Origin: Pseudomonas sp. PDM18
Lineage (GTDB): Bacteria > Pseudomonadota > Gammaproteobacteria > Pseudomonadales > Pseudomonadaceae
Assembly (NCBI RefSeq): GCF_014852585.1
Contig: NZ_JACVBX010000003.1
Span: forward strand, 248,001-312,000
Length of the DNA: 64,000 nt
Direction: 5' to 3'
Shown here: one piece after another, positions 1 through 63,348 of the stretch
How the letters are laid out: each line of letters begins with the position of its first letter
Position numbering within the stretch: position 1 is the first letter of the stretch
The notes under the pieces: generated by a model
Told to the model about the DNA's origin: nothing
What the model saw: the letters and a program-made list of their open reading frames with translations, nothing else
The model's database searches: none
Translations under genes and position numbers: made by a program

Positions 1-609
1 ATTTTTATAGCCGACCACTTGATTCGGACAGGACTTCACGAGCAAATAGAGAGCTTTCTCGAAGAAGGCTCATTCAGTGCAAAGGACTCGATCTATCTTG
101 CCGAGAGATTTCGCGGAAAATATTGCATTGCCACCGACCTCAATGAGTCAGCGATGAAAGGCGCTGCGCATTCACAGGTGAGCTCATGCGTGGCTGATGC
201 ATTCAAACTTCCGTTTTCAGATCGACAATTTTCGGTAACCTTTCACTCCGGCCTCATCGTGCTTTTCCATAACGAAGAGGCGATTCGTATCGTAGAAGAG
301 CAATTGAGGGTCACCGCGAAGATTGCCTTTGTTTTTGCTCATAATCAGCACAACCGAGTGGACAATCTCGCCAGCCTGTTGAAGCGGATCGCCGGAAAAA
401 GGATCTTCACATTCAGGCGTTTCACTACTGCCGATCTGCAAGCCATTGGCGAGCGAACAGGCTGTTCCTTCGAGATCGTGGCGTACGACAACATGCTGGA
501 AAATTTCGTCAGCAGGAATGTTCCCTGGCTACTGCCCACCGTGAGGCTCCTGAGGCTGCACCGTATCAAAGCGCTGGCCAATGAACTGGTCTTGATCATT
601 ACGCCATGA
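1..609 (+). CDS. SAM-dependent methyltransferase, 5' end cut by the window edge
   Basis: The reading frame is open to base 1, so the N-terminus lies outside the window; the first possible in-frame start inside is a TTG at 19, which is probably not the real one. The visible 200 residues resemble the C-terminal two thirds of class I (Methyltransf_11) enzymes: an acidic strand-2 motif (ATDLNESAM) that would bind the SAM ribose, followed by VADAFKLPFSD, like the usual D-A-x-x-L-P-F motif, and a strand-4 stretch (FSVTFHSGLIVLF). The glycine-rich motif I must lie upstream and cannot be checked. The stop overlaps the next ATG (ATGA at 606-609), so it is translationally coupled to the ATP-grasp gene. 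The substrate is unknown; the context suggests a sugar or surface polymer. Confidence 0.7.
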   Translation: MFIADHLIRTGLHEQIESFLEEGSFSAKDSIYLAERFRGKYCIATDLNESAMKGAAHSQVSSCVADAFKLPFSDRQFSVTFHSGLIVLFHNEEAIRIVEEQLRVTAKIAFVFAHNQHNRVDNLASLLKRIAGKRIFTFRRFTTADLQAIGERTGCSFEIVAYDNMLENFVSRNVPWLLPTVRLLRLHRIKALANELVLIITP

Positions 610-1667
610 GACATGTCGTCTTGGGAGGCAGTGCAAACGCACTTGCGATTTGCAGGCAACTGGACTCGCCTGGCACCGTTCTGGTGGACGTTCAGGAGCG
701 GGCGCCAGCTCACCGGACCCGTTACACAGAGTCCGTCACCCTGACATCCGATGCCGCCGAGGATATTCTCAGAACGCTCCTCGACCTGCCATCCGAGCAG
801 CCTCGGATTCTTTATCCAACCAGTGACTTCTGGTTGGAGTTCATTTCCCAGCATGCTCAAACATTGCGGGAAAACGGCTTTCTTTTCTTCCAGAAGTCGT
901 GTGATTGCGCGGAAATCTTGCTCGACAAGTTGAAATTCTTCGAAGTGATGAACCGCAGGTTTCAGGTGCCTCACACCGAAGCAGCAGAAGGCTTTGCAGA
1001 GTCCGCAACGGAAATAGTCAAACCTCGCCGGGCATTCATTGGCGGGAAGCTTTCCCAGAAAGGATTCCGCAGCAACGCTCCAGGCCTCTCCAGCACCCAC
1101 ATCAGACAACAACGACTGAATTCAGACCTGCACAATCATCTGTCTATTTCTGGCCTGTTCCTGGATGGATCACTCACTGCCAGCATCTGCACTAGGAAAG
1201 TCCTTGAGTATCCACATCCTGGCGGAACGGCAGTTATGGTCTCGACCATTGACTCAAAGGAACTCATAGCTCGCCTCGAAGTCCTCGCCCAACAAGCACT
1301 GCGGCACCTAGACTATGAAGGAATATTCGAACTGGAGGCTATTCTCCAGGAGGGCGAACTCTGGCTGCTTGAGATAAATGGTCGATTCTGGCTGCAACAC
1401 GCCATGGGCAGTAATCGGAAAGTAAATTTCTCAAGGGCTTACGCAGAGGCACTGCTCGGCAATGTGCCTGCCTCTTCTACACTAAATGCCGACAAGGTCG
1501 TGTGGATTCATGAGGGCATGCCAGTTGCTTTTTTGAAAGCTTCCCGCGCTTCCAAGATAGATGCCATCAAAACCATGTTCGGCAAGGGTCAATGGATCTT
1601 CGCTCACTTCAATCGCAAAGACTATATGCCATTCATTGAATTCATAAAATGCAAACTGGCAAACTGA
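606..1667 (+). CDS. ATP-grasp family carboxylate ligase
   Basis: This 353-residue protein resembles ATP-grasp enzymes, which activate a carboxylate as an acyl phosphate and join it to an amine or thiol. The C-terminal half carries the metal-binding strand pair FELEAILQEGE and LLEINGRFW (the E-x-N motif that ligates magnesium), as in CarB-like and carbamoyl-phosphate-synthase-like members. The N-terminus (HVVLGGSANALAICRQL) looks like a Rossmann-like pre-ATP-grasp domain. It overlaps the upstream methyltransferase by 4 nt and the downstream membrane protein by 19 nt, so the three form one operon. The substrate cannot be read from sequence. An amino acid or other acid joined to an amino-sugar is one possibility, because a NodB-type deacetylase lies opposite. 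Confidence 0.7.
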   Translation: MRHVVLGGSANALAICRQLDSPGTVLVDVQERAPAHRTRYTESVTLTSDAAEDILRTLLDLPSEQPRILYPTSDFWLEFISQHAQTLRENGFLFFQKSCDCAEILLDKLKFFEVMNRRFQVPHTEAAEGFAESATEIVKPRRAFIGGKLSQKGFRSNAPGLSSTHIRQQRLNSDLHNHLSISGLFLDGSLTASICTRKVLEYPHPGGTAVMVSTIDSKELIARLEVLAQQALRHLDYEGIFELEAILQEGELWLLEINGRFWLQHAMGSNRKVNFSRAYAEALLGNVPASSTLNADKVVWIHEGMPVAFLKASRASKIDAIKTMFGKGQWIFAHFNRKDYMPFIEFIKCKLAN

Positions 1668-2551
1668 TTAAAAAGGCCATCGCGCCGCTTACGGCGATCC
1701 TTTTTCTAGCTTTCTGTTATCTGCACAAGGAAGCCTTCAGGAACCTCACGTCATTCCCGCCAGACAGCCTCCTCTGTATCGTCGCGCTCTATCTGCTCTT
1801 CCACCTGACCAATGCTCTGGTACTAAAGCAGTTGAGCGACAAGATCAATCCAGCCGGAAACCTATTGTTCTTCGTCGGGGTAAATCAGATATCGAGCGCT
1901 TGGAACTACGTAGCGCCTCTGCGCCTGGCGCAGTTTGGCAGCCGCGCCCTGTTGCTAAAAAAGCACCTGCAAATATCGATTAGTCAGAGCGCCGCGCAAT
2001 TCAGCATTGCCTCGATCTTCAACGTCATCTGCAACGTCGCTGCAACCCTACTGATATTGTTCATTGAGCCCCAAGCAGTCCCCAACGCTTTGCTACTAAC
2101 CTTGGCAGGTCTCGCAACACTGGGGGGTATGGCAACCTGTCTTTACTTACCCCGACTCAGCCGCTCGAATGCATCCTGGATGCAAGAACTCGCGGGCCCC
2201 TTCCAGGTACTACGGGGCATGGATGCCTTCAAGCTTTTGAGCTTGAACAGCATACAGATCACGCTCTCCACGGCGATTACTTATGTGCTGTTTCAAGGGG
2301 CCGGCCTTGTCTTCGAGCTGACCGATTGCATCCTCATCGCCACCGCCAGCGTATTGCTTTCCATCGTATCGCTAACACCAGGCAACCTGGGTTACAAAGA
2401 ACTTTCCCTGACACTGCTGGGGAGCTGGCTCGGTCTGGAGCAAGGACCATTACTGGCAGCGCTCATGCTCGACAGGGCAATCCAGCTAGGCCTGACACTG
2501 TCATTGGCGGCCATCTTCTCACTATCTCTGCAGCGCCTTTCGCCGCCGTAG
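1649..2551 (+). CDS. LPG synthase transmembrane-like (UPF0104) membrane protein
   Basis: This 300-residue, very hydrophobic protein has about seven to eight predicted membrane helices. Its pattern resembles the lysylphosphatidylglycerol synthase TM / UPF0104 family: a conserved polar stretch (SSAWNYVAPLRLAQFGSRALLL) after the first helices and a glycine-rich LTPGNLGYKELSLTLLGSWLG near the end. Members often sit in polysaccharide and glycolipid clusters and are thought to move or modify lipids; the catalytic aminoacyl-transfer domain of MprF is absent here. The start overlaps the ATP-grasp gene by 19 nt, and no strong ribosome-binding site is visible. Its stop TAG at 2549-2551 abuts the stop of the opposing gene directly. 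Confidence 0.7.
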   Translation: MQTGKLIKKAIAPLTAILFLAFCYLHKEAFRNLTSFPPDSLLCIVALYLLFHLTNALVLKQLSDKINPAGNLLFFVGVNQISSAWNYVAPLRLAQFGSRALLLKKHLQISISQSAAQFSIASIFNVICNVAATLLILFIEPQAVPNALLLTLAGLATLGGMATCLYLPRLSRSNASWMQELAGPFQVLRGMDAFKLLSLNSIQITLSTAITYVLFQGAGLVFELTDCILIATASVLLSIVSLTPGNLGYKELSLTLLGSWLGLEQGPLLAALMLDRAIQLGLTLSLAAIFSLSLQRLSPP

Positions 2552-3376
2552 CTATGAGAGCAGCTCCTGCATGGTGACGATCGAAGCCTGCTCCTTGAGT
2601 GCCTGGACGAAAGCAATGAATGCTCCTTTCCCTCGACCCGCAATAAAGCAGGGATGCGAGTAATACACGCCAAACCCCGACTCTCCTATGCTCTGCGCTA
2701 CTGCATCTTCCATCGACCTGCGCCCTCCAGATGCCACCAACCATTCCAGATAGTCCACGGTGTTGGCCGCCGCCAGCGTCACGGGTATATCGGGCAGCCC
2801 ACACTGGCGCCGCAGAATCACTCCGCGCATGTCGATGAAGTCGGATAAATAGCGGCATCCCGCCTCGGCAAGCAGTTCATAAGCAGGCTCACTCACTGCA
2901 AAACCCGGGCTGCTGAATCCGAAGCCTTCAGCCCCCAGCAATTGCTGATAGCGCTCTATGGCAGGCACGAGAAAGGAGTGCATCTGCGCAGTAGACATGG
3001 TGGATGCGGCGTAATGCCACAAACTGTGGTTGAGGCCGCCATGCAGGCCAATTTCATGGCCTCGCTCTTGCGCCTGCCTCAGAGCAGGCCCAGACAATCG
3101 TTGCAATTCGGGATTGAGGAGAATGCTTTCGAACAAGCCCAGCCAGCCGATTTTGCTGCGGATCGACAGTTTGGCGGGAGCGCTCGCGGAGGCCGTGTGG
3201 AGAGCACCTCTAGTGAGGCGTCGGCGTAGTGCAGCAGGGACACTGACCGAACGCCCCATGTTGGCAAAGATGGTGAAGCGAACACCCAAACTGTCACCCA
3301 GCGCAACGACCTCAGCGAGCCGACGGGCGCAAACCGTGGTATCGATATCCAGGCGAATGGCATATCGGCGCGTCAC
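2552..3376 (-). CDS. Polysaccharide deacetylase (NodB-homology) family protein
   Basis: About 274 residues of the carbohydrate esterase 4 / NodB-homology type. The metal/catalytic motif 1 appears as AIRLDID and motif 2 as HEIGLHGGLNH, with the two histidines spaced as in ArnD-like and PuuE-like enzymes. Members remove N-acetyl or N-formyl groups from amino-sugars, including lipid-linked ones. I chose the GTG at 3376 because it overlaps the upstream wecB stop as GTGA and leaves the conserved domain intact; a TTG 21 nt upstream is possible. It is the last gene of the minus-strand operon. In this context it could trim an amino-sugar made by the epimerase and loaded by the GT2 enzyme; that is inference. 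Confidence 0.75.
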   Translation of the reverse strand: MTRRYAIRLDIDTTVCARRLAEVVALGDSLGVRFTIFANMGRSVSVPAALRRRLTRGALHTASASAPAKLSIRSKIGWLGLFESILLNPELQRLSGPALRQAQERGHEIGLHGGLNHSLWHYAASTMSTAQMHSFLVPAIERYQQLLGAEGFGFSSPGFAVSEPAYELLAEAGCRYLSDFIDMRGVILRRQCGLPDIPVTLAAANTVDYLEWLVASGGRRSMEDAVAQSIGESGFGVYYSHPCFIAGRGKGAFIAFVQALKEQASIVTMQELLS

Positions 3377-4461
3377 GTGGCAGGACTCTCCAGGCAACTG
3401 TCAACCACCCGCGCGGAAGGCGAAGCTTCCGACACCAGGGGCGCTCTGGGAGCCCGGTCATTCAGCGATGCCATGAACGCCAGAACACGCTGCGGCTGGT
3501 ACTCGGACAAGGTGCAGTTGTCATCCAGGCCCTCTTTGCGCTCTGTCGCCGCCCGCAACAACAAGAGCGGCTTGCCCAGGTAATAGCACTCCTCCTGATT
3601 ACTGCCGCCGTCGCTCACAACGAATCGTGCAGCCCGCACTAGATGCATGAAGCGCAAATAATCGTAGCGCTGGCGCAACTCGAGTCCTGGTAGCTTCGAC
3701 AAGCGATCGAACAGCCCGTACTGCCTCAGCTTACGCTCGGTCGGCTTGTGCAGGATGAAGAGCAAGGGGAACTGCCCCGCGACTAACTCAATCAATTCGA
3801 CGATACGCAGAAGGGCGTTCTTGTCCTTGAGGTTTTCGAAGCGGTGAATGCTGATAATTCCGAAGTCCCCTGGAGGCACCTGAAGATCGAAGTCCTGCGA
3901 GCGACTCAACATGATCCGCAGCGAGTCCTGCAGCGTGTTGCCGCCGATATCAATGTTTCGGCCACCTCGATATCCCACCACGTTGCCGAGCGCCCACCCC
4001 CCAGGACAGAAACGAATATCGGCCATGCGCCCCACCACGATGCGGATCAGCTCTTCGGGAAACGGATGGAAATAGTTGAAAGAGCGCAGACCGGCCTCTA
4101 CATGGCCGACTCGCTGTCCACCTATTTTGGCAATGAACGCTCCCAACAGCGTGGAGGCGGTATCACCGTGAACCAGCACTATCCCATTACGCACGGGGAA
4201 CAAGCTACGACGAGTGCGGAACGCCCGAAACATCACCTTGAGCGACCAGGTCAGCATCTGCCGGATCGAAACGATATCCTGCCCCTCATGCAGAAATACT
4301 TCCGGTCCGGCCAACTGGAAGTTCGCCAGGATATCGTCCGTGGTGTCCTTGTGCTGGCCGGTGGAAATGAACCGGTACTCCACACCACGATCACGAAGCT
4401 CCATCATCACCGGCGCCATCTTGATCAGCTGTGCTTTGGTGCCCAGCACGACGTAGATCAT
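3373..4461 (-). CDS. wecB: UDP-N-acetylglucosamine 2-epimerase, non-hydrolysing (WecB family)
   Basis: This 362-residue protein matches the WecB/MnaA family, which interconverts UDP-GlcNAc and UDP-ManNAc in the cytoplasm. Visible hallmarks are the N-terminal VLGTKAQLIKMAPVM, the HGDTAST and HVEAGLRSF stretches that hold catalytic acidic residues, and the C-terminal uridine-binding region GGSNQEECYYLGKPLLLL followed by TERKE. It is close to the usual family length. It starts 1 nt after the GT2 stop and overlaps the deacetylase by 4 nt, so it is part of a tight operon. The usual epimerase signature S-G-G is SDGGSN here, a small deviation that may mean a modified UDP-sugar substrate. Confidence 0.82.
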   Translation of the reverse strand: MIYVVLGTKAQLIKMAPVMMELRDRGVEYRFISTGQHKDTTDDILANFQLAGPEVFLHEGQDIVSIRQMLTWSLKVMFRAFRTRRSLFPVRNGIVLVHGDTASTLLGAFIAKIGGQRVGHVEAGLRSFNYFHPFPEELIRIVVGRMADIRFCPGGWALGNVVGYRGGRNIDIGGNTLQDSLRIMLSRSQDFDLQVPPGDFGIISIHRFENLKDKNALLRIVELIELVAGQFPLLFILHKPTERKLRQYGLFDRLSKLPGLELRQRYDYLRFMHLVRAARFVVSDGGSNQEECYYLGKPLLLLRAATERKEGLDDNCTLSEYQPQRVLAFMASLNDRAPRAPLVSEASPSARVVDSCLESPAT

Positions 4462-4462
4462 G

Positions 4463-5338
4463 TCAGTCCCCGGTACGACTATAGAGCAGGTTGGTGATCT
4501 GTTCGGAGACGAGTCCCATCAGGAAGACCATGATGGATGTCGTGAACAGCAACGCACTCATGTTGGTGAAGCGCGAATACTCGATGAAGGTGTAGAGGTA
4601 GTACCCCAGGCCCAACGTAAACAGACTGGCACTGATTGGCAGGAATATCTTCAGCGGCGAATACAGCGTGCCGATCTTGAAAATAATCATTAGGAAACGA
4701 ATGCCATCCCGAACCAGCTTGATATGGCTTTGTGTCCCCGCCAGCCTCGGCTTGACGTCGACGGGCACATAGGCCACGGAGTGACCGGCTCGGAAGAAGC
4801 ACATGGTCGTGGTAGTCGGATAGGAAAAACCATTGGGCAGCAGGCAGATGAATTCTTCGACCAATGCACGGCGCATAGCGCGGAATCCAGAGGTCAGATC
4901 CGCCACAGGCTGCCCCACCATCCAGCTTGCGAGGCGATTGTAGAAAGCGTTAGCCATACCACGATGAACGCCTGCCTGGGCGGTGCCAGAGCGAGAGCCA
5001 ACGACCAGGTCATAGCCATCGTCGAGCTTACTCAGCAGCAACTCGATATCAGCAGGACGATGCTGCCCATCCGCATCCATGCACACCACTACTTCTCGGC
5101 TGGCACTGCGCAGACCACTTTTGATCGCCGCACCGTTACCCTTGCTATAAGGGTGGCGAACCACCTTCGCGCCGAACTCCGCGGCTACGGCGGAGGTTGA
5201 ATCAGTGGAGCCATCGTCGACCACGATGATTTCCGCCTGCGGATACAACTGCCTCAACTCCGGCAACACCAAGGACAGGCCCTGCATCTCGTTCTTCGCC
5301 GGCAAAATGATCGAGATGTCTCTCCCGCTTTTTTCCAC
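4463..5338 (-). CDS. Family 2 glycosyltransferase, DPM1/GtrB-like, with C-terminal membrane anchor
   Basis: This 291-residue protein has an N-terminal GT-A domain: IILPAKNE, the nucleotide-binding VVDDGSTDST and the metal-binding MDADGQH. Two C-terminal membrane helices follow at about residues 225-280. This layout is that of polyprenyl-phosphate sugar transferases (DPM1, GtrB, ArnC), which load a sugar from a nucleotide donor onto undecaprenyl phosphate at the cytoplasmic face. DLTSGFRAM is also typical. The start is GTG at 5338, directly after the stop of the GT-C gene, with a strong AAGGAGG 4 nt upstream. Its neighbours suggest that it makes the lipid-linked donor for the GT-C enzyme. Confidence 0.8.
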   Translation of the reverse strand: MEKSGRDISIILPAKNEMQGLSLVLPELRQLYPQAEIIVVDDGSTDSTSAVAAEFGAKVVRHPYSKGNGAAIKSGLRSASREVVVCMDADGQHRPADIELLLSKLDDGYDLVVGSRSGTAQAGVHRGMANAFYNRLASWMVGQPVADLTSGFRAMRRALVEEFICLLPNGFSYPTTTTMCFFRAGHSVAYVPVDVKPRLAGTQSHIKLVRDGIRFLMIIFKIGTLYSPLKIFLPISASLFTLGLGYYLYTFIEYSRFTNMSALLFTTSIMVFLMGLVSEQITNLLYSRTGD

Positions 5339-7279
5339 TTACCCCTCCTTCCGCTTCGCAGACTCTCTCTCGACGTACTTCATTGCCGCCGCACAACGCT
5401 CACGCCGAGCATCGGCCAACCAGGGATTACGCGGCAGGTTCCGGCACATCTCGGTGCCGACGAACTGGCGGGCCTCATCAAATTTCTGCTGGCGCACCCA
5501 GTACCCCAGGAGAACTTCCGCTACCCCCGGGTCATTCTTGATGGCCCAGACCTTTTGCAGGTAAAGCATCGCCGTCTGATCATCACCGCGCTCCACAGCC
5601 AGACGCTGGAGATTGGAATAAAGGTGCAGCAGATAGCCATTGGCGCCGCCTTTCTCCTGGGCTGAGGCCATCGCTGCCAGCAAGTGTTGTAGATCGTCCA
5701 AGCCCAGCGCCTTGCACTGGCCGGACTCGATCTGTTTGAACATACTGGTCAGTGCTGACGGAGCACTGCCCAGATCAGGTCTTGCCGCAAGGCTCAGCGC
5801 CTGTTCGTAATGACGGCGCACATCAGCGTCTCGCCCTTCGATGCAAGACAACAACATGGCCTGTACCGCCGATCCGACGCAGTCGGGGCAACGCTCGGTC
5901 TGCATCTCCATCACGCGCCCGGCTTCGTAGACCTTTCCTTTGCCCAGGAACATCAGTGCGAGATGCTCTGCCGCTCGGGAAGATCCACGCGCCGTATCGA
6001 ACCACACCAGCGCCGCGTCCAGAGGCTTGCTCCACAAAGAAGTCACCTGGCACAGAATCGCGAGCATCCCTACGCAATAGGCGGCGACTACGCCAAGAGC
6101 GATTTTTCGATAACGGTCTGCTAGGCCAGATACTCCCCAGACGATTGCGAGGCAAGGACCAAACAACGCGACGTAATTGCGGTGTTCAAAGTACAACTCC
6201 AGGCCAACCACCGTCGACTCCAGCAAATGGGCAGCGAGGAACCACAGCACAGCGAATGCGAACACAGGAGCGCGACGACGCAAAGTAACGGCCAAGAGCA
6301 GGCCACCAATCAGCGCCAGAATTGCCAGCCCATTGCCCCAGCCGAGCATCCGCTGAACTGGATATTGATCATGAAAGGGACTGATTGCGAATGGGTCGGG
6401 CAGAAATGCAGCGCGCAGGTAGTCGAACAGCACTACCGACTCAGTCAACAAGCGTTCTTCAAGGGTGAAGTCTCGACCCGAGTAGTCAGTACTGGACAGG
6501 CTTCTAATGACCAGATACGCCACTAGCAACAGGGTCGTACCGCCGGTAAGTGACAGGCGCAACCTCCGCCATGGCGCGACCTCCGGGACACCCGCCAGCA
6601 GCGTCAACTCCAGTACGAAAACGAAAACCGGCAGTAGTGCCCCGTTTTCCTTGGCAAACATCGACAGGATGGTTGCGCAACCCAACACAGCCAAGGGGTA
6701 AAGAGTGCTGACGAATTTTCGCTTATCCAGCGAGCGCAGGGCTCGCAGATAGCCAAACACGCCAAGAAATACGAAGACAGCCGAGAGTCCGGCCATACGC
6801 TGGACGGTGATCAGCGAGGTGGTCACCTGAATCGGCAGCACAGACCAGAGAACAGTCACCAGAAGAGCTGTAGAACTCGCACGGGCAGGCGCAACGCCCT
6901 TGAGTATCAAGAGGGTGCGAGTCAGCAATAGCACCAATGCTGTGTTGACAACATGCACCGCGATATTGATGCGTAGAAAGTCGGAAACGTTATTTGGCCA
7001 ATCACTCTGGTTGAGCAGGAAGCTGAACATGCTCAACGGACGCCCGAGCGGGCCGGATATATCCCCCAGTGCATAGATCATTGCAGAGGAAAGATCATGA
7101 GCTGCGGTTAAGCCAGATAATGGACGGATATCGTCGTAATAGAACGTACCGGGCAACCCTAGAGAGTAGGCCAGATATAGACAAACTCCCCAGACGAGAG
7201 CGGCCACGGTAAGGGAACGATTGAGTTTCAGAGTCACACCCTTGAAGTACAAATAAAAATGGACCGCTAGGCGGTCCAT
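5339..7279 (-). CDS. GT-C type membrane glycosyltransferase with C-terminal TPR-like domain, next to pilA
   Basis: This 646-residue protein has roughly ten membrane helices (residues 22-415) and then a soluble helical-repeat region (about 430-640). Features of GT-C/TMTC-like transferases are visible: acidic pair D49-D50 in the first external loop (FYYDDIRPL), FAKENG at about 208-213 and YFEHRNY at 363-369. GT-C enzymes use polyprenyl-phosphate sugars in the periplasm. It is the first gene after pilA on the same strand, 16 nt from the pilA stop, the place where pilin glycosyltransferases (TfpO, TfpW) are found in P. aeruginosa. The PilA tail lacks the C-terminal serine used by TfpO, so a TfpW-like role on internal residues is more likely. 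The ATG has GGAG 7 nt upstream and lies in a terminator hairpin; a GTG at 7237 is a weaker alternative. Confidence 0.72.
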   Translation of the reverse strand: MDRLAVHFYLYFKGVTLKLNRSLTVAALVWGVCLYLAYSLGLPGTFYYDDIRPLSGLTAAHDLSSAMIYALGDISGPLGRPLSMFSFLLNQSDWPNNVSDFLRINIAVHVVNTALVLLLTRTLLILKGVAPARASSTALLVTVLWSVLPIQVTTSLITVQRMAGLSAVFVFLGVFGYLRALRSLDKRKFVSTLYPLAVLGCATILSMFAKENGALLPVFVFVLELTLLAGVPEVAPWRRLRLSLTGGTTLLLVAYLVIRSLSSTDYSGRDFTLEERLLTESVVLFDYLRAAFLPDPFAISPFHDQYPVQRMLGWGNGLAILALIGGLLLAVTLRRRAPVFAFAVLWFLAAHLLESTVVGLELYFEHRNYVALFGPCLAIVWGVSGLADRYRKIALGVVAAYCVGMLAILCQVTSLWSKPLDAALVWFDTARGSSRAAEHLALMFLGKGKVYEAGRVMEMQTERCPDCVGSAVQAMLLSCIEGRDADVRRHYEQALSLAARPDLGSAPSALTSMFKQIESGQCKALGLDDLQHLLAAMASAQEKGGANGYLLHLYSNLQRLAVERGDDQTAMLYLQKVWAIKNDPGVAEVLLGYWVRQQKFDEARQFVGTEMCRNLPRNPWLADARRERCAAAMKYVERESAKRKEG

Positions 7280-7285
7280 TTTTTA
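7255..7285 (-). terminator. Rho-independent terminator of pilA, overlapping the next start codon
   Basis: On the minus strand, an 8-bp stem (TGGACCGC / GCGGTCCA) with a 3-nt CTA loop is preceded by A6 and followed by T5ATTT. It lies directly after pilA. The ATG of the downstream glycosyltransferase is in the left arm, so termination and translation start may compete. Confidence 0.85.
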
Positions 7286-7295
7286 GCTCCGGAGA

Positions 7296-7691
7296 TTACT
7301 GGCAAGCCTTCGGCTTGTACTCAGGATCTGCGTTGCTGGAGCAGGTCCACTCACCGCTGGTGCCGTTACGGGTCCAGGAAATGGTTTTACCATTCACTTG
7401 GGTCGGTGCGTTAGCGAGAGTACAAACGATACCGCCAGCCTTGGTAGCTACGATGCCGCAGTTGGAGGTAGTAGCCTGCAGGCCGATATCAGCTGCAGAA
7501 GTCACGTCCTCATCTTCGTTAATGCGAGTTTCGAAAGCAGTTTTGCCAGCGGAGATTTCGGCCAGACCCGCAGTGATCTTCGCCTTAGCCTGGTACTTGC
7601 TGTAAGCCGGGATGGCGATGGCAGCCAGGATGCCGATGATTGCAACCACGATCATGAGTTCGATCAGGGTGAAGCCTTTTTGAGCCTTCAT
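7296..7691 (-). CDS. pilA: Type IV major pilin PilA
   Basis: The 131-residue prepilin has a short leader MKAQKG cut by PilD before F7, then the classical [20 protein letters not shown] helix with Glu at mature position 5. Four cysteines are at 78, 90, 117 and 130. The last pair would close the usual C-terminal D-loop, and C78-C90 may form a second disulphide in the alpha-beta region. The start at 7691 follows GGAGAG by 5 nt; longer upstream readings are not pilin-like. It is transcribed from a sigma-54 promoter at 7738-7757 and ends at a terminator before the GT-C gene. There is no C-terminal serine, unlike TfpO-glycosylated pilins. PilA is the main fibre subunit for twitching and adhesion. 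Confidence 0.96.
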
Positions 7692-7737
7692 AGTTCTCTC
7701 CAGGATTTGTAGAAAGGTCGTTGGACCTGAGTCCTTC

Positions 7738-7757
7738 AAAGCAGCTTCCGTGCCAAA
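7738..7757 (-). promoter_or_regulatory. Sigma-54 (RpoN) promoter of pilA
   Basis: On the minus strand, TTTGGCACGGAAGCTGCTTT has GG (-24) and GC (-12) separated by exactly 10 nt, matching TGGCAC-N5-TTGC well. The expected transcript start is about 7729, giving a leader of about 38 nt to the pilA ATG. P. aeruginosa pilA is known to need RpoN and PilR; pilSR are in this window. Confidence 0.9.
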
Positions 7758-7828
7758 TCTCCTACACCCTGAAAACCGCTACTCTGTAGGAAAACGCAAT
7801 GTTTCTTGAGAGAAAATTACGCAGGAAG

Positions 7829-7857
7829 TGACAAAATTTGACAGCCCACTGATGTCA
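7829..7857. promoter_or_regulatory. Candidate PilR enhancer boxes upstream of pilA
   Basis: Three TGACA/TGTCA words lie at 7829-7833, 7839-7843 and 7853-7857, some 75-120 nt upstream of the pilA sigma-54 promoter. Spacing and sequence resemble the TGTC-containing PilR cassettes described for P. aeruginosa pilA. They also sit next to the pilB promoter. Confidence 0.5.
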
Positions 7858-7859
7858 AT

Positions 7860-7888
7860 TTGGCAGAGGTGGGCATCTGCGATATAAG
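7860..7888 (+). promoter_or_regulatory. Sigma-70 promoter of pilBCD
   Basis: TTGGCA (7860-7865) and TATAAG (7883-7888) are separated by 17 nt. The expected start near 7895 is about 22 nt before the pilB ATG at 7917. This supports the internal ATG over an upstream start at 7860. Confidence 0.65.
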
Positions 7889-7916
7889 GCACCCTATTCA
7901 TTGCCAGGCATACTCC

Positions 7917-9620
7917 ATGAACGATCAAGTCGTGCTGTCCGGGCTCGCTCGCCAACTGGTGATTGCCGAGCTGCTGGATGAAAAGAGCGCCCAGCAGGCG
8001 CAGCTACAGGCCCAGCGCAACAATCTGTCGCTGGTGACTTATCTGGTGCAGAACAAGCTGGTCAAGAGCAAGCCGCTGACCGAGCTGGCGGCGGACCAGT
8101 TCGGTATTGCCTATCTGGACCTTTCCTCGATCGACAAGGACAGCCTGCCCAAGGAGCTGATCAGCGAAAAGCTGGTGCGCCAGCACCGCGTGATGCCGCT
8201 GTGGCGCCGGGGCAACAAGCTTTTTGTGGGTCTGTCCGACCCGACCAACCACCAGGCGATCACCGACGTCCAGTTCAGCACTGGCCTGACCACCGAGGCC
8301 ATCCTGGTCGAGGACGACAAGCTTGGCGATGCCATCGAGAAGCTGTTCGAAAGCGCCAACAGCGGGCTGGATGACCTTGGCGATGTCGACCTCGAAGGCC
8401 TCGACATCGAGCACGGCAACACCGAACCCAAGGACGACCCCATTGGCGGTGACGCCGACGACGCGCCGGTGGTGCGCTTCGTCAACAAGATGCTGCTCGA
8501 CGCCATCAAGGGCGGCTCGTCCGACTTGCACTTCGAGCCCTACGAGAAGATCTACCGCGTCCGCTTCCGTACCGATGGCATGTTGCATGAAACCGCCAAG
8601 CCGCCGATCCAGCTGGCCAGCCGTATCTCCGCACGCCTGAAGGTAATGGCCGGTCTGGATATTTCCGAGCGCCGCAAGCCCCAGGACGGCCGTATCAAGA
8701 TGCGAGTGTCCAAGACCAAGTCCATCGATTTCCGCGTCAACACCCTGCCCACGCTGTGGGGCGAAAAGATCGTGATGCGGATCCTCGACTCCTCCAGCGC
8801 GCAGATGGGGATCGACGCGCTGGGCTACGAAGAAGCGCAGAAGCAGCTCTACCTCGATGCATTGAAGCAACCGCAGGGCATGATTCTGGTGACCGGCCCG
8901 ACTGGCTCGGGCAAGACGGTATCGCTCTATACCGGCCTGAATATCCTCAACACGCCGGACATCAATATCTCCACCGCCGAAGACCCGGTGGAGATCAACC
9001 TGGAAGGCATCAACCAGGTCAACGTCAACCCGCGCCAGGGCATGGACTTCGCCCAGGCCCTGCGCGCCTTCCTGCGCCAGGACCCTGACGTGATCATGGT
9101 TGGTGAGATCCGCGACCTGGAAACCGCCGAGATCGCCATCAAGGCGGCGCAGACCGGTCACATGGTGATGTCCACCCTGCACACCAACAGCGCAGCCGAA
9201 ACCCTGACGCGCCTGCTGAACATGGGGGTCGCCTCGTTCAACCTGGCCACCTCGACCAACCTGATCATTGCCCAGCGCCTGGCGCGCAAGCTCTGTCCGC
9301 ACTGCAAGAAAGAACACGACGTTCCACGGGAAGCCCTGCTGCACGAAGGCTTCCCTGCGGACCAGATCGGCAGCTTCAAGCTCTATTCGCCAGTCGGGTG
9401 CGACAATTGCAAAGGTGGATACAAGGGCCGCTTGGGTATTTATGAAGTGGTTAAAATCACGCCTGCGCTGCAACGCATTATCATGGAGGAAGGCAACTCC
9501 ATTCAGATCGCGGAGCAAGCCCGCAAAGAAGGCTTCAATGACCTGCGTACCTCGGGCCTGCTCAAGGCCATGCAAGGCATCACCAGCCTCGAGGAAGTCA
9601 ACCGCGTGACCAAGGATTAA
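7917..9620 (+). CDS. pilB: Type IV pilus extension ATPase PilB
   Basis: This 567-residue cytoplasmic motor powers pilus extension. An N-terminal GspE/MshEN-type domain with RQHRVMPLWRRGNKLFVGLSDP precedes the ATPase. Walker A GPTGSGKT starts at residue 327; the Asp box and Walker B region (DPDVIMVGEIRD) lie near 390. A zinc-binding pair of Cys motifs (CPHC at about 460 and CDNC about 35 residues later) is typical of PilB/GspE. I start at MNDQ (7917), which aligns with P. aeruginosa PilB and lies downstream of the promoter. It begins the pilBCD operon, divergent from pilA, and pilC follows after 3 nt. Confidence 0.96.
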   Translation: MNDQVVLSGLARQLVIAELLDEKSAQQAQLQAQRNNLSLVTYLVQNKLVKSKPLTELAADQFGIAYLDLSSIDKDSLPKELISEKLVRQHRVMPLWRRGNKLFVGLSDPTNHQAITDVQFSTGLTTEAILVEDDKLGDAIEKLFESANSGLDDLGDVDLEGLDIEHGNTEPKDDPIGGDADDAPVVRFVNKMLLDAIKGGSSDLHFEPYEKIYRVRFRTDGMLHETAKPPIQLASRISARLKVMAGLDISERRKPQDGRIKMRVSKTKSIDFRVNTLPTLWGEKIVMRILDSSSAQMGIDALGYEEAQKQLYLDALKQPQGMILVTGPTGSGKTVSLYTGLNILNTPDINISTAEDPVEINLEGINQVNVNPRQGMDFAQALRAFLRQDPDVIMVGEIRDLETAEIAIKAAQTGHMVMSTLHTNSAAETLTRLLNMGVASFNLATSTNLIIAQRLARKLCPHCKKEHDVPREALLHEGFPADQIGSFKLYSPVGCDNCKGGYKGRLGIYEVVKITPALQRIIMEEGNSIQIAEQARKEGFNDLRTSGLLKAMQGITSLEEVNRVTKD

Positions 9621-9623
9621 TCC

Positions 9624-10841
9624 ATGGCGGATAAAGCAGCAAAAATGGGCGTCTTTACCTGGGAAGGTACGGATCGCAAGGGCGGGAAGGTCAAAGGGGA
9701 GCTTTCCGGCATGAACACCGCCTTGGTCAAGGCGCAACTGCGCAAGCAGGGCATCAACCCGACCAAGGTGCGCAAGAAGGGCATGTCCCTGCTAAGCGCG
9801 GGCAAGAAGATCAAGCCCATGGACATCGCGCTGTTCACCCGGCAGATGGCAACCATGATGGGCTCGGGCGTGCCGCTGCTGCAGTCATTCGACATCATCG
9901 GCGAGGGTTTCGACAACCCCAACATGCGCAAGCTGGTGGAGGAGATCAAGCAGGAAGTCGCCGCCGGCAACAGCCTGGCCAACTCCCTGCGCAAGAAGCC
10001 GCAGTACTTCGACGACCTGTACTGCAACCTGGTCGATGCCGGTGAGCAATCCGGTGCGCTGGAAACCTTGCTGGATCGCGTGGCGACCTATAAGGAAAAG
10101 ACCGAATCGCTCAAAGCCAAGATCAAGAAGGCGATGACCTATCCGATCGCGGTCGTGGTGGTTGCAGTCATCGTCTCCGCGATCCTGCTGATCAAGGTGG
10201 TGCCACAGTTCCAATCCGTCTTCGCAGGTTTTGGCGCGGAACTACCGGCTTTCACCATGTTCGTGATCCATATTTCCGAAGCGCTACAGACCTGGTGGTT
10301 TGTTGTGCTGATCGCCATGTTCGGCTTCGCTTTCGGCTTCCGTGAGTTTCACAAGCGATCCGAAAAATTCCGCGACGCGCTCGACCGTGGATTGCTGAAG
10401 ATTCCGGTGATCGGCGACATCCTCTACAAATCCGCCGTAGCCCGTTACGCCCGCACGCTCGCCACCACCTTTGCCGCGGGTGTTCCCCTGGTAGAGGCGC
10501 TTGATTCCGTAGCCGGCGCAGCCGGCAACGTGGTGTTCCGCAATGCGGTCTATCGCATCAAGCAGGACGTATCCTCCGGTACCCAGCTGAACTTCTCCAT
10601 GCGCACCACCGGCGTGTTCCCGAGCATGGCGATCCAGATGGCCGCCATCGGTGAGGAATCCGGCTCCCTCGACGCGATGCTGGACAAGGTGGCCTCGTTC
10701 TACGAAGAAGAGGTCGACAACGCTGTGGATAACCTGACCACCCTGATGGAGCCGCTGATCATGGCGGTCCTGGGTGTGCTGGTCGGTGGCCTGATCATCG
10801 CAATGTACCTGCCGATCTTCCAACTGGGCTCCGTCGTTTAA
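9624..10841 (+). CDS. pilC: Type IV pilus inner-membrane platform protein PilC
   Basis: This 405-residue member of the GspF/PilC family has two repeated T2SSF domains: one around FTRQMATMMGSGVPLLQSFDII and one around YARTLATTFAAGVPLVEALDSVAG. Three membrane segments are seen (AVVVVAVIVSAILLIKVVPQF, WWFVVLIAMFGFAFGF and the C-terminal MAVLGVLVGGLIIAMYLP). It couples the PilB motor to the assembling pilin. It sits 3 nt after pilB, and its stop overlaps the pilD start as TAATG. Length agrees with the family. Confidence 0.96.
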   Translation: MADKAAKMGVFTWEGTDRKGGKVKGELSGMNTALVKAQLRKQGINPTKVRKKGMSLLSAGKKIKPMDIALFTRQMATMMGSGVPLLQSFDIIGEGFDNPNMRKLVEEIKQEVAAGNSLANSLRKKPQYFDDLYCNLVDAGEQSGALETLLDRVATYKEKTESLKAKIKKAMTYPIAVVVVAVIVSAILLIKVVPQFQSVFAGFGAELPAFTMFVIHISEALQTWWFVVLIAMFGFAFGFREFHKRSEKFRDALDRGLLKIPVIGDILYKSAVARYARTLATTFAAGVPLVEALDSVAGAAGNVVFRNAVYRIKQDVSSGTQLNFSMRTTGVFPSMAIQMAAIGEESGSLDAMLDKVASFYEEEVDNAVDNLTTLMEPLIMAVLGVLVGGLIIAMYLPIFQLGSVV

Positions 10842-11713
10842 TGTTCTTCTTCGACCTCCTGGCCAGCACCCCGCTGGCCTTTGTTTCATGCGTCACCCTT
10901 CTCGGCCTGCTGGTCGGCAGCTTCCTCAACGTGGTGATCCATCGCCTGCCGCGAATGATGGAACGCGACTGGCAGCAGCAGGCGCGGGAAACCCTGGGCC
11001 TGCCGGAGGGTGAGAAGCGCCCGACCTACAACCTGGTCCTGCCCAACTCCCAGTGCCCGCATTGCGCCCACGAGATCAAGCCGTGGGAGAACATCCCGCT
11101 GGTGAGCTGGCTGGCGCTGGGTGGCAAGTGTTCGTCGTGCAAGGCGCCGATCAGCAAGCGTTACCCGCTGGTCGAGTTGGCCTGTGGCGTACTGTCGGCC
11201 TTCATCGCCTGGCATTACGGCTTCGGCTGGCAGTCCGGCGCGATGCTGCTGCTGACCTGGGGTCTGCTGGCGATGAGCATGATCGACGTCGATCATCAGC
11301 TGCTGCCGGACGCCCTGGTGTTGCCGTTGCTCTGGCTGGGGCTGATCGTCAACCACTTCGGGCTTTTTACCAGCCTGGGCGACGCGCTCTGGGGCGCGGT
11401 GTTCGGTTACCTGAGCCTGTGGTCGGTGTACTGGCTGTTCAAGCTGATCACCGGCAAGGAAGGCATGGGCTACGGCGATTTCAAGCTGCTGGCCATGCTC
11501 GGCGCCTGGGGTGGCTGGCAGGTGCTGCCGCAGACCATCCTGTTCTCGTCGCTGGTAGGTGCTGTGCTGGGCGTGATCATGCTGCGCCTGCGCAATGCTG
11601 AAACCAGTACGCCCATCCCCTTCGGCCCCTATCTGGCCATCGCCGGCTGGATTGCGCTGCTCTGGGGTGATCAAATAACCGCGACCTATCTGCAGTTCGC
11701 CGGTTTCCGCTAG
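10841..11713 (+). CDS. pilD: Prepilin peptidase / N-methyltransferase PilD
   Basis: This 290-residue bifunctional membrane enzyme cuts prepilin leaders after glycine and methylates the new N-terminus. The cytoplasmic zinc-binding domain carries CPHC and CSSC. The catalytic aspartates are in [12 protein letters not shown] and in the [11 protein letters not shown] (GxGD) motif. About eight membrane helices are predicted. It would process PilA and the minor pilins FimT, FimU, PilV, PilW, PilX and PilE of this window, and also type II secretion pseudopilins. The start overlaps the pilC stop by one base. Confidence 0.96.
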
Positions 11714-41780: not shown

Positions 41781-42311
41781 ATGGCCAAGGAGCAATCTAC
41801 TATCAGTGAGCAGGGCTTCACCCTTGTCGAGCTGCTGTTCACTCTCGCGATACTGGCGATCGCACTCTCCATCGCAGCCCCAGACTTCAGCGAACTCCTG
41901 CATAACCAGCGGGCAAGCACAGCCACCCAGGAACTGCGCAATGCCCTGAACTTCGCCCGCGAATCGGCCGTGCACAGCGGGCAACCGATCAGTATCGCCG
42001 CGACCCATGGCGACTGGGCTGCCGGCTGGGAGGTTTTCGCCGACTCCGCCAATAGCGGCGTCCGCCCCCCTCAGCAACAGCCACTTGCGGCCCACGGCCC
42101 CCTGAGCGGTATCAGCATCCGCACCGACAGCACCTCGCGCCGCTACCTCCACTTCACCCCGCGCGGCAACGCAATCCAGCCCAAAGGCGCTTTCCACGCT
42201 GGCACGCTGACGCTCTGCGGCGCGGGCCGAACGAGTTATCACATCGTGTTCAACAAGGCGGGACGCATCCGCACCGAGGCAGGAAACACCGAGGACTACT
42301 GCCCCCGCTGA
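41781..42311 (+). CDS. fimT: Type IV pilus minor pilin / pseudopilin FimT
   Basis: 176 residues. Leader MAKEQSTISEQG, then FTLVELLFTLAILAIALSIA with Glu5 of the mature form. The GspH-type body ends with a Cys pair (TLCGAG and EDYCPR). FimT binds DNA and helps natural uptake in related bacteria; in P. aeruginosa it is not essential for twitching. It is separated from fimU by 150 nt. Confidence 0.9.
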   Translation: MAKEQSTISEQGFTLVELLFTLAILAIALSIAAPDFSELLHNQRASTATQELRNALNFARESAVHSGQPISIAATHGDWAAGWEVFADSANSGVRPPQQQPLAAHGPLSGISIRTDSTSRRYLHFTPRGNAIQPKGAFHAGTLTLCGAGRTSYHIVFNKAGRIRTEAGNTEDYCPR

Positions 42312-42379
42312 CCGACTTCTCACCCCTTGCGCGACGGTGTTCACAGAACCTCGGCGGGCATGACCGAACATCGCCGTAA

Positions 42380-42388
42380 TACGAACGG
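42380..42388 (-). promoter_or_regulatory. Candidate AlgR box upstream of fimU
   Basis: On the minus strand, CCGTTCGTA matches the AlgR site CCGTTCGTC at eight of nine positions. P. aeruginosa AlgR is known to drive the fimU-pilVWXY1Y2E operon. The box lies about 75 nt before the fimU start. Confidence 0.5.
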
Positions 42389-42461
42389 TCATCCATAGAA
42401 AAAAGACATTTCCCACACGACTAGGCAGCATTGCCGCTATCGAAAATGTGAGGAATGCGCC

Positions 42462-42962
42462 ATGTCGCGCCCCAAGGAGCAAGCCGGGCTTACGCTGGTG
42501 GAGCTGGTCACTGTGATTGCGATTATCGCAATCCTCGCCTCCATTGCCTTTCCGAGCTTTCAACGCACGCTCGCGAGCAATCGAGTGACGTCCACCTCCA
42601 ACAGTCTGCTCGGCCTGCTGCAACTCGCCCGCAGCGAAGCGATGACCATGGGGCGGACGGTGACCGTCTGCCCCAGCACCGACCAGGCCACCTGCACCCA
42701 AGGCGCCACCTGGAACAACGGCATGATCGCACTGCGTAACGGCAGCAGCACCCCGGTGCGGATAGTGCCGGACATCAGCAACGGCACTTCGGTCAGCGCC
42801 AGCAGTGGGGCGAACAGCGTCAGCAGTCTGACCTTCAATGCTAACGGCACCATCAGCGCCGCCACCTCCTTCGGCATCTGCAACAGCAGCGGCCACGTCG
42901 CGCGACAGATTGACGTCAATCTACTTGGCCACGCCACCATCGTTGCGGGGCAATGCCCATGA
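42462..42962 (+). CDS. fimU: Type IV pilus minor pilin FimU
   Basis: 166 residues. Leader MSRPKEQAG and LTLVELVTVIAIIAILASIA (Glu5), then a GspH/FimT body with Cys in TVCPSTDQATC and GICNSSG, ending GQCP. It is the first gene of the priming operon fimU-pilVWXY1E; all following genes overlap by about 4 nt or lie within 12 nt. FimU links the priming complex to PilA. Confidence 0.92.
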   Translation: MSRPKEQAGLTLVELVTVIAIIAILASIAFPSFQRTLASNRVTSTSNSLLGLLQLARSEAMTMGRTVTVCPSTDQATCTQGATWNNGMIALRNGSSTPVRIVPDISNGTSVSASSGANSVSSLTFNANGTISAATSFGICNSSGHVARQIDVNLLGHATIVAGQCP

Positions 42963-43432
42963 AACGCCAGTCCGCCGGTTTCACCCTGCTCGAAGTACTG
43001 ATTGCCATGTTGATCCTGGCCATCGGCCTGCTCGGTATGGCCAGCCTGATGATCACCAGCCTGCAGAACAACCAGGGCGCCTATACCCGCGCCCAGGCCA
43101 CCGTGCTGGCCTACGACATAGTCGAACGCATGCGTGCCAACCGTCCGCAGGCAGAGCTGGACAGCTCCCCTTACGTGCTCGCCAGCGGCAGCCCGGCCGC
43201 CAGCGCCAAGGACTGCCAGCAGAACGGCTGCAGCCCGTCGGAAATGGCCGCCTGGGACATGGCGCAATGGTGGGCTGACATGCAGACGAGCATTCCCGGT
43301 GCCACCGCCACGGTCACCCAGATAACCGGACGAAGTTACGAGATCAACCTGAGCTGGAAGGAAACCTCATCGGCTCGGGGCGCCGGCACCACGCCTGATA
43401 CGCTGACCTACAAACTGAGAACCGACCTATGA
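42959..43432 (+). CDS. pilV: Type IV pilus minor pilin PilV
   Basis: 157 residues from the ATG at 42959, which overlaps the fimU stop as ATGA; an ATG two codons upstream is possible. Leader MKRQSAG, then FTLLEVLIAMLILAIGLLGM (Glu5) and the PilV-typical AYDIVERMRANR. Part of the FimU-PilV-PilW-PilX-PilE priming complex. Its Cys residues (KDCQQNGC) could form a disulphide. Confidence 0.93.
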   Translation: MKRQSAGFTLLEVLIAMLILAIGLLGMASLMITSLQNNQGAYTRAQATVLAYDIVERMRANRPQAELDSSPYVLASGSPAASAKDCQQNGCSPSEMAAWDMAQWWADMQTSIPGATATVTQITGRSYEINLSWKETSSARGAGTTPDTLTYKLRTDL

Positions 43433-44106
43433 CGTACGCGTATCCACAGCTAGCGATGCCTCGGCAGCAAGGCTTCTCGCTGATCGAGCTGATGGTGGCG
43501 ATCGTCCTCGCCAGCCTGCTGATCCTAGGCGTGACCCAGCTCTACTCGAACTCGGCAGCGACCGACCGCACCAACTCCGCCCTGGCCCGCGTGCAGGAGA
43601 GCGGTCGCACGGTGCTCGAACTCATCCGCCAGGACACTTGGCGAGCGGGATTCGAGGGCTGCATCAACCCGCTCACGCTGACCAAGGTCGGCAACGTCAC
43701 TTTCCCTGACGACACGGTGATAGCACAGACTAACCCGCTTGGCGTGACCCTGCGCTATGCCTCACGCGACAACACGGGCACCAGCTTCCCGCAGAAAGAC
43801 TGCGACAACTCCCAGCTGTATCTGCACGAAGTCACTTACGCCAACTGTTCCGGCAACCAGGCGGGCATCTGCGTCACCAGCAACGGGGGAGCGGCAACCC
43901 AGCTCACGGCCGATGTCACCATCAGCGCGATCCGCTATGGCGTGCCAAACAAGGCAGGAACCTCGGTTACCTGGAAGGACAGCCCTGTGGCTGAGGATCT
44001 CCCCCGTACCACCGCGCTCCAGGTTTCGGTTCGTGCGACCGATACCAAGCAGGAGATCACCCGCGACTTCAGCTCCACGGTCATGATCAGGAATCGCTCG
44101 CAATGA
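43429..44106 (+). CDS. pilW: Type IV pilus minor pilin PilW
   Basis: 225 residues. A 15-residue leader ends QQG, then FSLIELMVAIVLASLLILGV with Glu5. The PilW-typical QESGRTVLELIRQDTWRAGFEGC follows. The start overlaps pilV (ATGA) and the stop overlaps pilX (ATGA). It is somewhat shorter than P. aeruginosa PilW (about 274 aa). Confidence 0.92.
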   Translation: MTYAYPQLAMPRQQGFSLIELMVAIVLASLLILGVTQLYSNSAATDRTNSALARVQESGRTVLELIRQDTWRAGFEGCINPLTLTKVGNVTFPDDTVIAQTNPLGVTLRYASRDNTGTSFPQKDCDNSQLYLHEVTYANCSGNQAGICVTSNGGAATQLTADVTISAIRYGVPNKAGTSVTWKDSPVAEDLPRTTALQVSVRATDTKQEITRDFSSTVMIRNRSQ

Positions 44107-44576
44107 CTTCCCGCACCCCGCAACGAGGCATGGCCCTGCTGGTCAGCCTGATGCTCCTGCTGCTGCTGACGGTAATCGCCATCAGCGCCGCCAACATGTC
44201 CTCCGTGCAACAGCGCATGGCGATCAACAGCCAGAACCAAAACGTCGCCTTCCAGGCGTCGGAGAGTGGCCTGGCGGCATGGATCACCCATTACGTGAAG
44301 ACTGGCATCCCCCTCGTAACCACCGAGGAACCACTTAAGGATGATGAAAACGACGAAGTGGTGGCAAAGTTCGCTGTGTCCTCTTCCGATCCGATCATCC
44401 TGCCCCCAGGCGTCGGAGCCTCCATCGGCACCGAGAACCCCGAGTTCCGCACCTACCCCATTACCAGCCTTGCTGTCGCCTGCGGCAGCGACTCCAGTGC
44501 CTGTGATCCCGCGACGGACAACGGGCATGCGCGTGCAAAGCACATGCAGGGCTACGAACAACGCCGGGTCAAGTAA
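44103..44576 (+). CDS. pilX: Type IV pilus minor pilin PilX
   Basis: 157 residues. Leader MTSRTPQRG, then MALLVSLMLLLLLTVIAISA; as in other PilX/GspK-like tip pilins, Glu5 is missing (Val here). QRMAINSQNQNVAFQASESGLAAW is PilX-typical. PilX sits at the tip with PilW and PilY1. Overlaps pilW by 4 nt. Confidence 0.92.
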   Translation: MTSRTPQRGMALLVSLMLLLLLTVIAISAANMSSVQQRMAINSQNQNVAFQASESGLAAWITHYVKTGIPLVTTEEPLKDDENDEVVAKFAVSSSDPIILPPGVGASIGTENPEFRTYPITSLAVACGSDSSACDPATDNGHARAKHMQGYEQRRVK

Positions 44577-44587
44577 CAGGAGCGCCC

Positions 44588-49375: not shown

Positions 49376-49398
49376 GCCCAACAACCCAGGTTGCAAGC

Positions 49399-63215: not shown

Positions 63216-63277
63216 GCGCACTTTACGATGGCGCAGGAAGCGCCGTCGGTGCTCCGCCGCCCGGGAGGCGGACGCAC

Positions 63278-63303
63278 AAAGGGGCGCCTGAGCGCCCCTT
63301 TTC
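63278..63303. terminator. Bidirectional terminator between the Fur-regulated gene and fklB
   Basis: AAAGGGGCGC-CTGA-GCGCCCCTTTT. Confidence 0.88.
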
Positions 63304-63348
63304 CTGCGCAGTCGCCAGGGATGGCACTGCGCAGCGAACCTTCGGGAA

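Follow-up and report, generated by a model that had tools for sequence, protein, structure and literature searches.

What is a set of sugar-modification genes doing beside pilA, the major pilin gene, in Pseudomonas sp. PDM18? The genes lie at the left end of a 64,000-nucleotide (nt) stretch of DNA, hereafter the window, which occupies positions 248001–312000 of the 448-kb contig G000:C33 (NZ_JACVBX010000003.1, assembly GCF_014852585.1). Judging from the sequence, we consider it probable (about 0.78) that the locus is a horizontally acquired, self-contained cassette for O-glycosylation of the type IV pilin, in which a membrane glycosyltransferase with a GT-C fold and a tetratricopeptide repeat (TPR) domain would act on PilA and a family 2 glycosyltransferase (GT2) would load the sugar donor. 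Gene content, folds, the order pilA–terminator-like hairpin–GT-C–GT2, flanking backbone genes, linkage and co-divergence were computed directly, and every substrate and step direction in the scheme given below is what we infer. Throughout, WbpA, WecB, WecC, ArnC/D/T, AglJ, TfpO, TfpW and TMTC are presumed to have the functions usually attached to these names.

From left to right, the window and the stretch to its left (L004) carry nadC, galE, a nucleotide-sugar dehydrogenase, a methyltransferase, an ATP-grasp protein and a UPF0104 membrane protein, those from the dehydrogenase to the UPF0104 protein being on the plus strand. Convergent with this set, on the minus strand, are a deacylase, an epimerase, GT2, GT-C/TPR and pilA, followed by the divergent pilB, pilC, pilD and coaE (the last three named by eye). 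The original prediction, made from the window alone, had listed pilA and the seven genes between the window edge and pilA, and all eight are where it placed them. It had also supposed that the left part of the locus was cut off; the missing part turned out to be a single gene, the dehydrogenase, beyond which lie galE and nadC. All cassette reading frames are intact and neighbours overlap or abut in each half-operon. The dehydrogenase end and the methyltransferase start overlap by 4 nt, and the methyltransferase, ATP-grasp and UPF0104 genes overlap one another. The tight packing predicted for the minus strand was likewise borne out, with 0 nt between GT-C and GT2, 1 nt between GT2 and the epimerase, and a GTGA overlap between epimerase and deacylase if the latter starts at GTG 3376, which agrees with the start in P. 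delhiensis. The two half-operons meet, their stop codons abutting at 2551/2552. We considered galE as a member of the cassette and rejected it, since it adjoins nadC in many genomes of the genus that lack the cassette; galE and nadC are taken as backbone.

The pilA gene (7296–7691, minus strand) encodes a precursor of 131 amino acids (aa) that matches the Pfam families Pilin (78.1 bits) and N_methyl (41.8 bits) and ends in KACQ. The GT-C/TPR gene is found at 5339–7279 on the same strand. Its presence at this place agrees with the earlier proposal, but its start is uncertain because the listed ATG at 7279 sits inside the hairpin (7283–7255); GTG 7237 may be the true start. The GT-C fold was confirmed with an AlphaFold2 model and VIA-align, and it fits both PMT and ArnT. 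With Foldseek alone no match reached E≤0.001, the top rows being TPR and other helical-repeat proteins, so that the fold assignment depends on VIA-align. For the C-terminal TPR part the evidence is VIA-align together with Pfam TPR families recognized in homologues (TPR_14 in 7 of 16); the window's own protein matches no Pfam family, and in a sequence search of the PDB TPR proteins rank first. These results uphold the predicted class of protein. When 16 members of the family were compared with Pfam-A and NCBIfam at E≤0.01, none matched any glycosyltransferase model; the only Pfam matches were to TPR families and RPN7, with none to PMT, TMTC or Wzy_C/O-oligosaccharyltransferase (O-OTase) families.

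The transferase was searched for in genomes of the genus, the family and the class. A single-sequence search recovered the GT-C protein in 3 of 25 genomes of the genus, and a profile of three GT-C sequences gave 18 matches among 398 genomes of the family, 17 of them with E<1e-70; the weak match (G068, E 1.2e-7) was not fetched. Two of the strong matches, in the present genome (G000) and in P. delhiensis (G003), are at pilA, one (G007) is cut by a contig end, and the other 14 were fetched. In each of the 14 the gene immediately upstream encodes a pilin, and a GT2 gene (product ∼58–64% identical) lies downstream on the same strand, which brings pilin adjacency to 16 of the 16 assessable strong matches. 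G056 has another pilin gene between its GT-C and GT2. Adjacency is retained in G069 and G160, which have no pilB in the fetched stretch, although the latter locus is still beside nadC.

At the level of the class, a 16-sequence profile run against 350 genomes gave 102 with E≤1e-20, the present one included. We examined 60 other loci, namely the 40 strongest and 20 picked from the rest with weak ones included, which is not a random sample. Of the 60, 39 have a pilin gene on the same strand no more than 1.5 kb upstream (36 of 53 if loci with under 1 kb of room are set aside); GT2 lies within 1.5 kb downstream in 39 (37 of the 56 with room), and 30 have both. The regular expression used to recognize pilins misses some: in G731 it passed over a pilin-like gene ∼1 kb upstream, where a 285-aa gene is also present. 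Other exceptions include G642, where the GT-C gene follows minor-pilin-like genes, and the four weakest loci, which have neither pilin nor GT2. As a control, the same kind of count gave 50 pilin-like open reading frames (ORFs) in 82 kb upstream of GT-C genes, 2 in 540 kb from other parts of these loci and none in 28 ArnD-type loci; the remaining 52 kb of the window contain 4, its own minor-pilin genes.

If the transferase recognizes the pilin, the two proteins might be expected to diverge together. Pairwise distances were compared over 37 loci (22 from the class, 13 from the family, G000 and G003), excluding the first 28 residues of the mature pilin and leaving out loci with more than one long GT-C or without pilin or GT2, as well as G007 and G056. 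Pilin and GT-C distances were correlated (rho 0.378; 0.367 when partial on GT2; 0 of 999 permutations as high), whereas pilin and GT2 distances were not (rho 0.100, 142 of 999; partial 0.035, 347 of 999); the correlation between GT-C and GT2 was weak (rho 0.181, 14 of 999). Such a pattern would be expected if the transferase is specific for the acceptor and the loader for the donor, although neighbouring genes that are transferred jointly could in part explain it instead.

Several variants of the arrangement occur. At least two adjacent GT-C ORFs, some of them fragments, occur in 12 of the 60 class loci; in L197 (G545), L223 (G479) and L219 (G530), for example, tandem GT-C ORFs are followed by a single GT2, perhaps providing one transferase per site or per pilin. 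A GT-C gene has a pilin gene on either side in G561 (L204, 5392–8339) and G056 (L151, 8938–11749), a degenerate GT-C copy with several stops lies at G431:C1:1406492-1407686, and G012 and G020 carry distant GT-C relatives (E 1.9e-18 and 1.2e-10).

Directly after pilA lies the terminator-like hairpin of 13 pairs with a T tail (7255–7283, minus strand). In 41 of 55 loci, the present one included, a similar rule places a hairpin at most 130 nt from the stop codon of the pilin gene, against 1.9 expected from mononucleotide shuffles; in the family of the window such a hairpin follows the pilin in 14 of 16 loci. A hairpin between pilin and enzyme suggests that the transferase would be expressed by read-through, far below the pilin, which would then be in excess. 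A possible sigma-54-type promoter of pilA (TGGCAC...CTGCT, 7735–7760, minus strand) was picked out by eye, unscored, by its likeness to the consensus.

What sugar might be transferred can be approached through the remaining genes. The GT2 protein (4463–5338, minus strand; 291 aa) is of the polyprenyl-phosphate type, with 103.5 bits to Glycos_transf_2, 132.5 bits to the AglJ model and 61.9 bits to the ArnC model (NF007986, cut-off 529), the latter two scores being below cut-off. The epimerase (3373–4461, minus strand; 362 aa) resembles non-hydrolysing UDP-GlcNAc 2-epimerases of the GT[KR]AQL subfamily, matching Epimerase_2 (171.7 bits) and, under the cut-off of 210.15, TIGR00236 (171.3 bits); it keeps the acidic and histidine motif residues (HGDT, HVEAGLRS, PFPEE, HRFEN). 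The family is WecB-like, in line with the original prediction. In a search of plasmid sequences the epimerase matched 234 records, the 12 listed being remote at 29–34% identity, and an epimerase of the same subfamily also directly follows GT2 in G563 and G440. The dehydrogenase exceeds the cut-off of the nucleotide-sugar dehydrogenase subfamily TIGR03026 (419.9 bits, cut-off 189.8) and misses those of the WecC equivalog NF008286 (249.9 bits, cut-off 459) and the TviB model (213.1, cut-off 592). Its top PDB match is Cap5O, and one of its 15 listed plasmid matches, 64% identical, is labelled wbpA, the rest being generic or unannotated.

The deacylase (2552–3376, minus strand; likely start GTG 3376, start in the ORF list 3397) had been called a NodB-type deacetylase. 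Membership of the carbohydrate esterase 4 (CE4)/NodB superfamily stands, but a generic NodB was set aside, ArnD being nearer by NCBIfam (equivalog NF011923, 27.5 bits, below the cut-off of 382) and by Foldseek (top match ArnD 8t0j, E 1.6e-7, from a model with a pLDDT of 56), though ArnD ranks third in the PDB sequence search (E 0.06) after two other CE4 deacetylases (E 0.015 and 0.053). Family-wide, a deacylase search matched 111 of 398 genomes; apart from the cassette copies in G000 and G003, no match was better than E 4.8e-9. Many of these weaker frames are ∼300 aa long, as expected of ArnD, and they were taken for ArnD and not counted as cassette members. A strong match was confined to two family genomes, plus one record of P. 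delhiensis in a GTDB search from which close relatives of the window may have been left out.

On the plus strand, the 3' part of a class I S-adenosylmethionine-dependent methyltransferase gene occupies 1–609 (full gene L004:11905-12609, 234 aa; Methyltransf_11 24.3 bits, cut-off 21.2), followed by that of an ATP-grasp ligase-like protein (606–1667, 353 aa; ATP-grasp_3, 26 bits) and that of a UPF0104/LPG_synthase_TM membrane protein (1649–2551, 300 aa; PF03706 71 bits; TIGR00374 41.7 bits, cut-off 43.2), which we propose as the flippase. The ATP-grasp protein was found in only 1 of the 350 class genomes, its own; a PDB sequence search gave no useful match for it, and a plasmid search only remote ones (8 records, 25–28% identity, labelled carbamoyl-phosphate synthase). 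PHROGs yielded nothing for the GT-C, methyltransferase or ATP-grasp proteins. No Wzx, Wzy or initiating phosphoglycosyltransferase family was matched by the cassette proteins in Pfam or NCBIfam.

Comparison within the genus bears on the origin of the cassette. The nadC–pilB interval was taken from 24 of the 25 genomes (in G018 nothing closely matches pilB, and contig ends interrupt the intervals of G007 and G023). Its contents vary from genome to genome around the constant nadC and pilB and the frequent galE. The only other whole cassette in the genus is that of P. delhiensis RLD-1 (G003, NZ_FZPC01000005.1), also at pilA and with the same set and order at a protein identity of 33–80%: locally, dehydrogenase 78%, methyltransferase 53%, ATP-grasp 52%, UPF0104 53%, deacylase 67%, epimerase 75%, GT2 80%, GT-C 33% and PilA 41%, compared with 93% for PilB and 89% for NadC. 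The arrangement that the original prediction had named as refuting it, the same set far from pilA in an O-antigen cluster, was not found among the 398 family genomes, the 350 class genomes or a pattern scan of GTDB contigs. GC content is lower in the plus-strand genes (0.546) and minus-strand genes (0.572) of the window than in nadC–galE (0.654) and pilB (0.605), and in P. delhiensis the two gene sets have 0.418 and 0.456, compared with nadC at 0.711 and pilB at 0.59. This points to horizontal acquisition. Elsewhere in the genus, the intervals (L094–L118) hold unrelated membrane proteins, such as alkaline-phosphatase-superfamily-like (G017) and amine-oxidase-like (G015) ones as judged by eye, and the site may host many types of pilin modification.

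The sugar genes of relatives differ from those described here. G007 has GT-C, GT2 and the dehydrogenase with different sugar genes, and in many relatives in the family the genes after GT2 include further glycosyltransferases, methyltransferases or aminotransferases. Proteins of one polysaccharide-flippase-like cluster are encoded after GT2 in 10 of 17 family loci (the G007 member just below the Pfam cut-off), and G160 has a MurJ-like protein; the fetched sequence contains the dehydrogenase in 11 of the 17. Clustering left 69 family-locus proteins unclassified; Pfam scans of 26 of them, and of two more taken from clustered groups, turned up no initiating phosphoglycosyltransferase. In G069 (L148, ∼876–5909, minus strand) pilA, GT-C and GT2 are followed by an ATP-binding cassette (ABC) transporter, a fusion of phosphoenolpyruvate mutase with a cytidylyltransferase-like domain, and a thiamine pyrophosphate enzyme, a set that suggests a phosphonate-bearing pilin glycan.

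These data can be assembled into the following scheme. Starting from UDP-GlcNAc, oxidation by the dehydrogenase and inversion of C2 by the GTKAQ epimerase, in either order, would most likely yield UDP-N-acetylmannosaminuronic acid (UDP-ManNAcA). GT2 would load the sugar on undecaprenyl monophosphate (Und-P) at the cytoplasmic face, the ArnD-like enzyme would strip the N-acetyl group from the lipid-linked sugar, and the ATP-grasp and methyltransferase proteins would derivatise either the amine so exposed or the carboxylate. Flipping of the lipid would fall to the UPF0104 protein, which would replace the Wzx-type proteins of many relatives, and in the periplasm the GT-C/TPR protein would move the sugar onto a Ser or Thr residue of PilA. 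One modified sugar per site is the probable product; both this and the role of UPF0104 are proposed because G000 and G003 have a UPF0104 protein, no polysaccharide-flippase-like protein and no glycosyltransferase other than GT2 besides the GT-C transferase (G056 also has UPF0104, 37.9 bits). The pathway in the original prediction, in which a sugar loaded on Und-P is deacylated, flipped and passed by GT-C to PilA, is thus backed by fold, gene order and co-divergence, while its substrates stay conjectural. We see even odds that the unit pilA–hairpin–GT-C/TPR–GT2, for which the family libraries searched have no model, serves Gammaproteobacteria as a major system of pilin O-glycosylation with a swappable sugar module, here and in P. 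delhiensis making a single deacylated, derivatised N-acetylhexosamine (HexNAc)-uronic sugar in an Arn-like manner.

Could pilA be a mere neighbour, and the GT-C protein a general periplasmic O-glycosyltransferase or a modifier of lipid A or another envelope target? The fold also suits ArnT, and 17 of the 53 class loci with room upstream show no pilin within 1.5 kb by the regular expression. Yet the adjacency in all assessable strong family matches and in 39 of 60 class loci, its persistence where pilB is missing from the stretch and the co-divergence with the pilin make this improbable, and lipid A is served by an arn-type locus of its own, ∼20 kb to the left of the window start. That locus (L242, G000:C33:219001-236000; 6330–11046) contains genes for an ArnD-like protein of 294 aa, an ArnT-like one of 548 aa and a UDP-glucose dehydrogenase-like one, the last two recognized by eye.

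A different doubt concerns the donor, which the original prediction took to be UDP-ManNAc. Plain UDP-ManNAc or UDP-GlcNAc would suit the WecB-like epimerase, and the dehydrogenase, being on the opposite strand, could belong to another pathway. We regard this as unlikely, though less so than the reading just discussed: the dehydrogenase adjoins the cassette, overlapping the methyltransferase gene by 4 nt, occurs in the genus in 3 of 3 nadC–pilB intervals with this GT-C and in none of 21 without it, and recurs in the family loci as noted, so that UDP-ManNAc is unlikely as the final donor. Still less credible, indeed very improbable, is the reading that the genes are what is left of an O-antigen or exopolysaccharide cluster that entered at pilA. 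O-antigen clusters typically hold WecB- and WbpA/WecC-type genes, and the cassette is AT-rich, but its frames are all open, its proteins match no Wzy, Wzx or initiating phosphoglycosyltransferase family, and P. delhiensis has the same order at pilA despite the divergence of the proteins.

The proposed glycosylation cassette shares features with several known systems. P. aeruginosa is known to carry pilin glycosylation cassettes at the same site, and there TfpW modifies group IV pilins with D-arabinofuranose from polyprenyl phosphate. The resemblance to TfpW lies in a GT-C enzyme beside pilA at the pilA–nadC site and a polyprenyl-monophosphate donor logic; here, however, the donor genes are those for dehydrogenase, 2-epimerase, GT2, ArnD-like deacylase, ATP-grasp and methyltransferase. 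The cassette genes match these families and UPF0104, no search having been aimed at models of the arabinofuranose pathway. TfpO and PglL are Wzy_C-type O-OTases that use undecaprenyl-diphosphate-linked O-antigen units, and TfpO uses a C-terminal Ser on the pilin. The location beside pilA and the modification of pilin are alike, but here the fold is GT-C, there is no Wzy_C match and the pilin ends in KACQ, without a C-terminal Ser. The Arn pathway (ArnC–ArnD–ArnT) offers a GT2 acting on Und-P, ArnD-type deacylation and an ArnT-like GT-C fold; the differences are a link to pilin instead of lipid A, other sugar precursors, the TPR domain on GT-C and the Arn equivalog cut-offs missed by GT2 and deacylase. 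Eukaryotic O-mannosyltransferases of the PMT and TMTC types have a GT-C domain and a polyprenyl-phosphate-sugar donor, TMTCs also having C-terminal TPRs, but the Pfam models for neither matched any of the 16 GT-C members. In the Francisella NaxD and Bordetella Lgm lipid A pathways an Und-P-HexNAc is deacetylated ahead of GT-C transfer; there the deacetylase is of another superfamily and the acceptor is lipid A. Judged by the tools used here, three things are new: the combination of donor genes, an Arn-like deacylation step encoded next to a pilin, and how widely the pilA–GT-C–GT2 unit occurs.

Pilin sugars influence phage adsorption, motility and surface contact. With the transferase beside its presumed acceptor and the presumed donor-loading enzyme in many genera, the pairing of enzyme and pilin is directly testable, and modular sugar genes would make the glycan structure partly readable from sequence. 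For the present cassette, an amine-bearing uronic acid on the pilus would be unusual chemistry.

Other genes in the window also relate to pili. Minor pilin-like genes with FimT/PilV/PilW-like N termini, a 1595-aa PilY1-like protein and a PilE-like pilin are encoded at 41781–49821 on the plus strand, and genes resembling pilS/pilR lie at ∼37.4–40.5 kb, all recognized by eye from translations. An RsmW RNA at 63222–63342 marks the genome as Pseudomonas-type.

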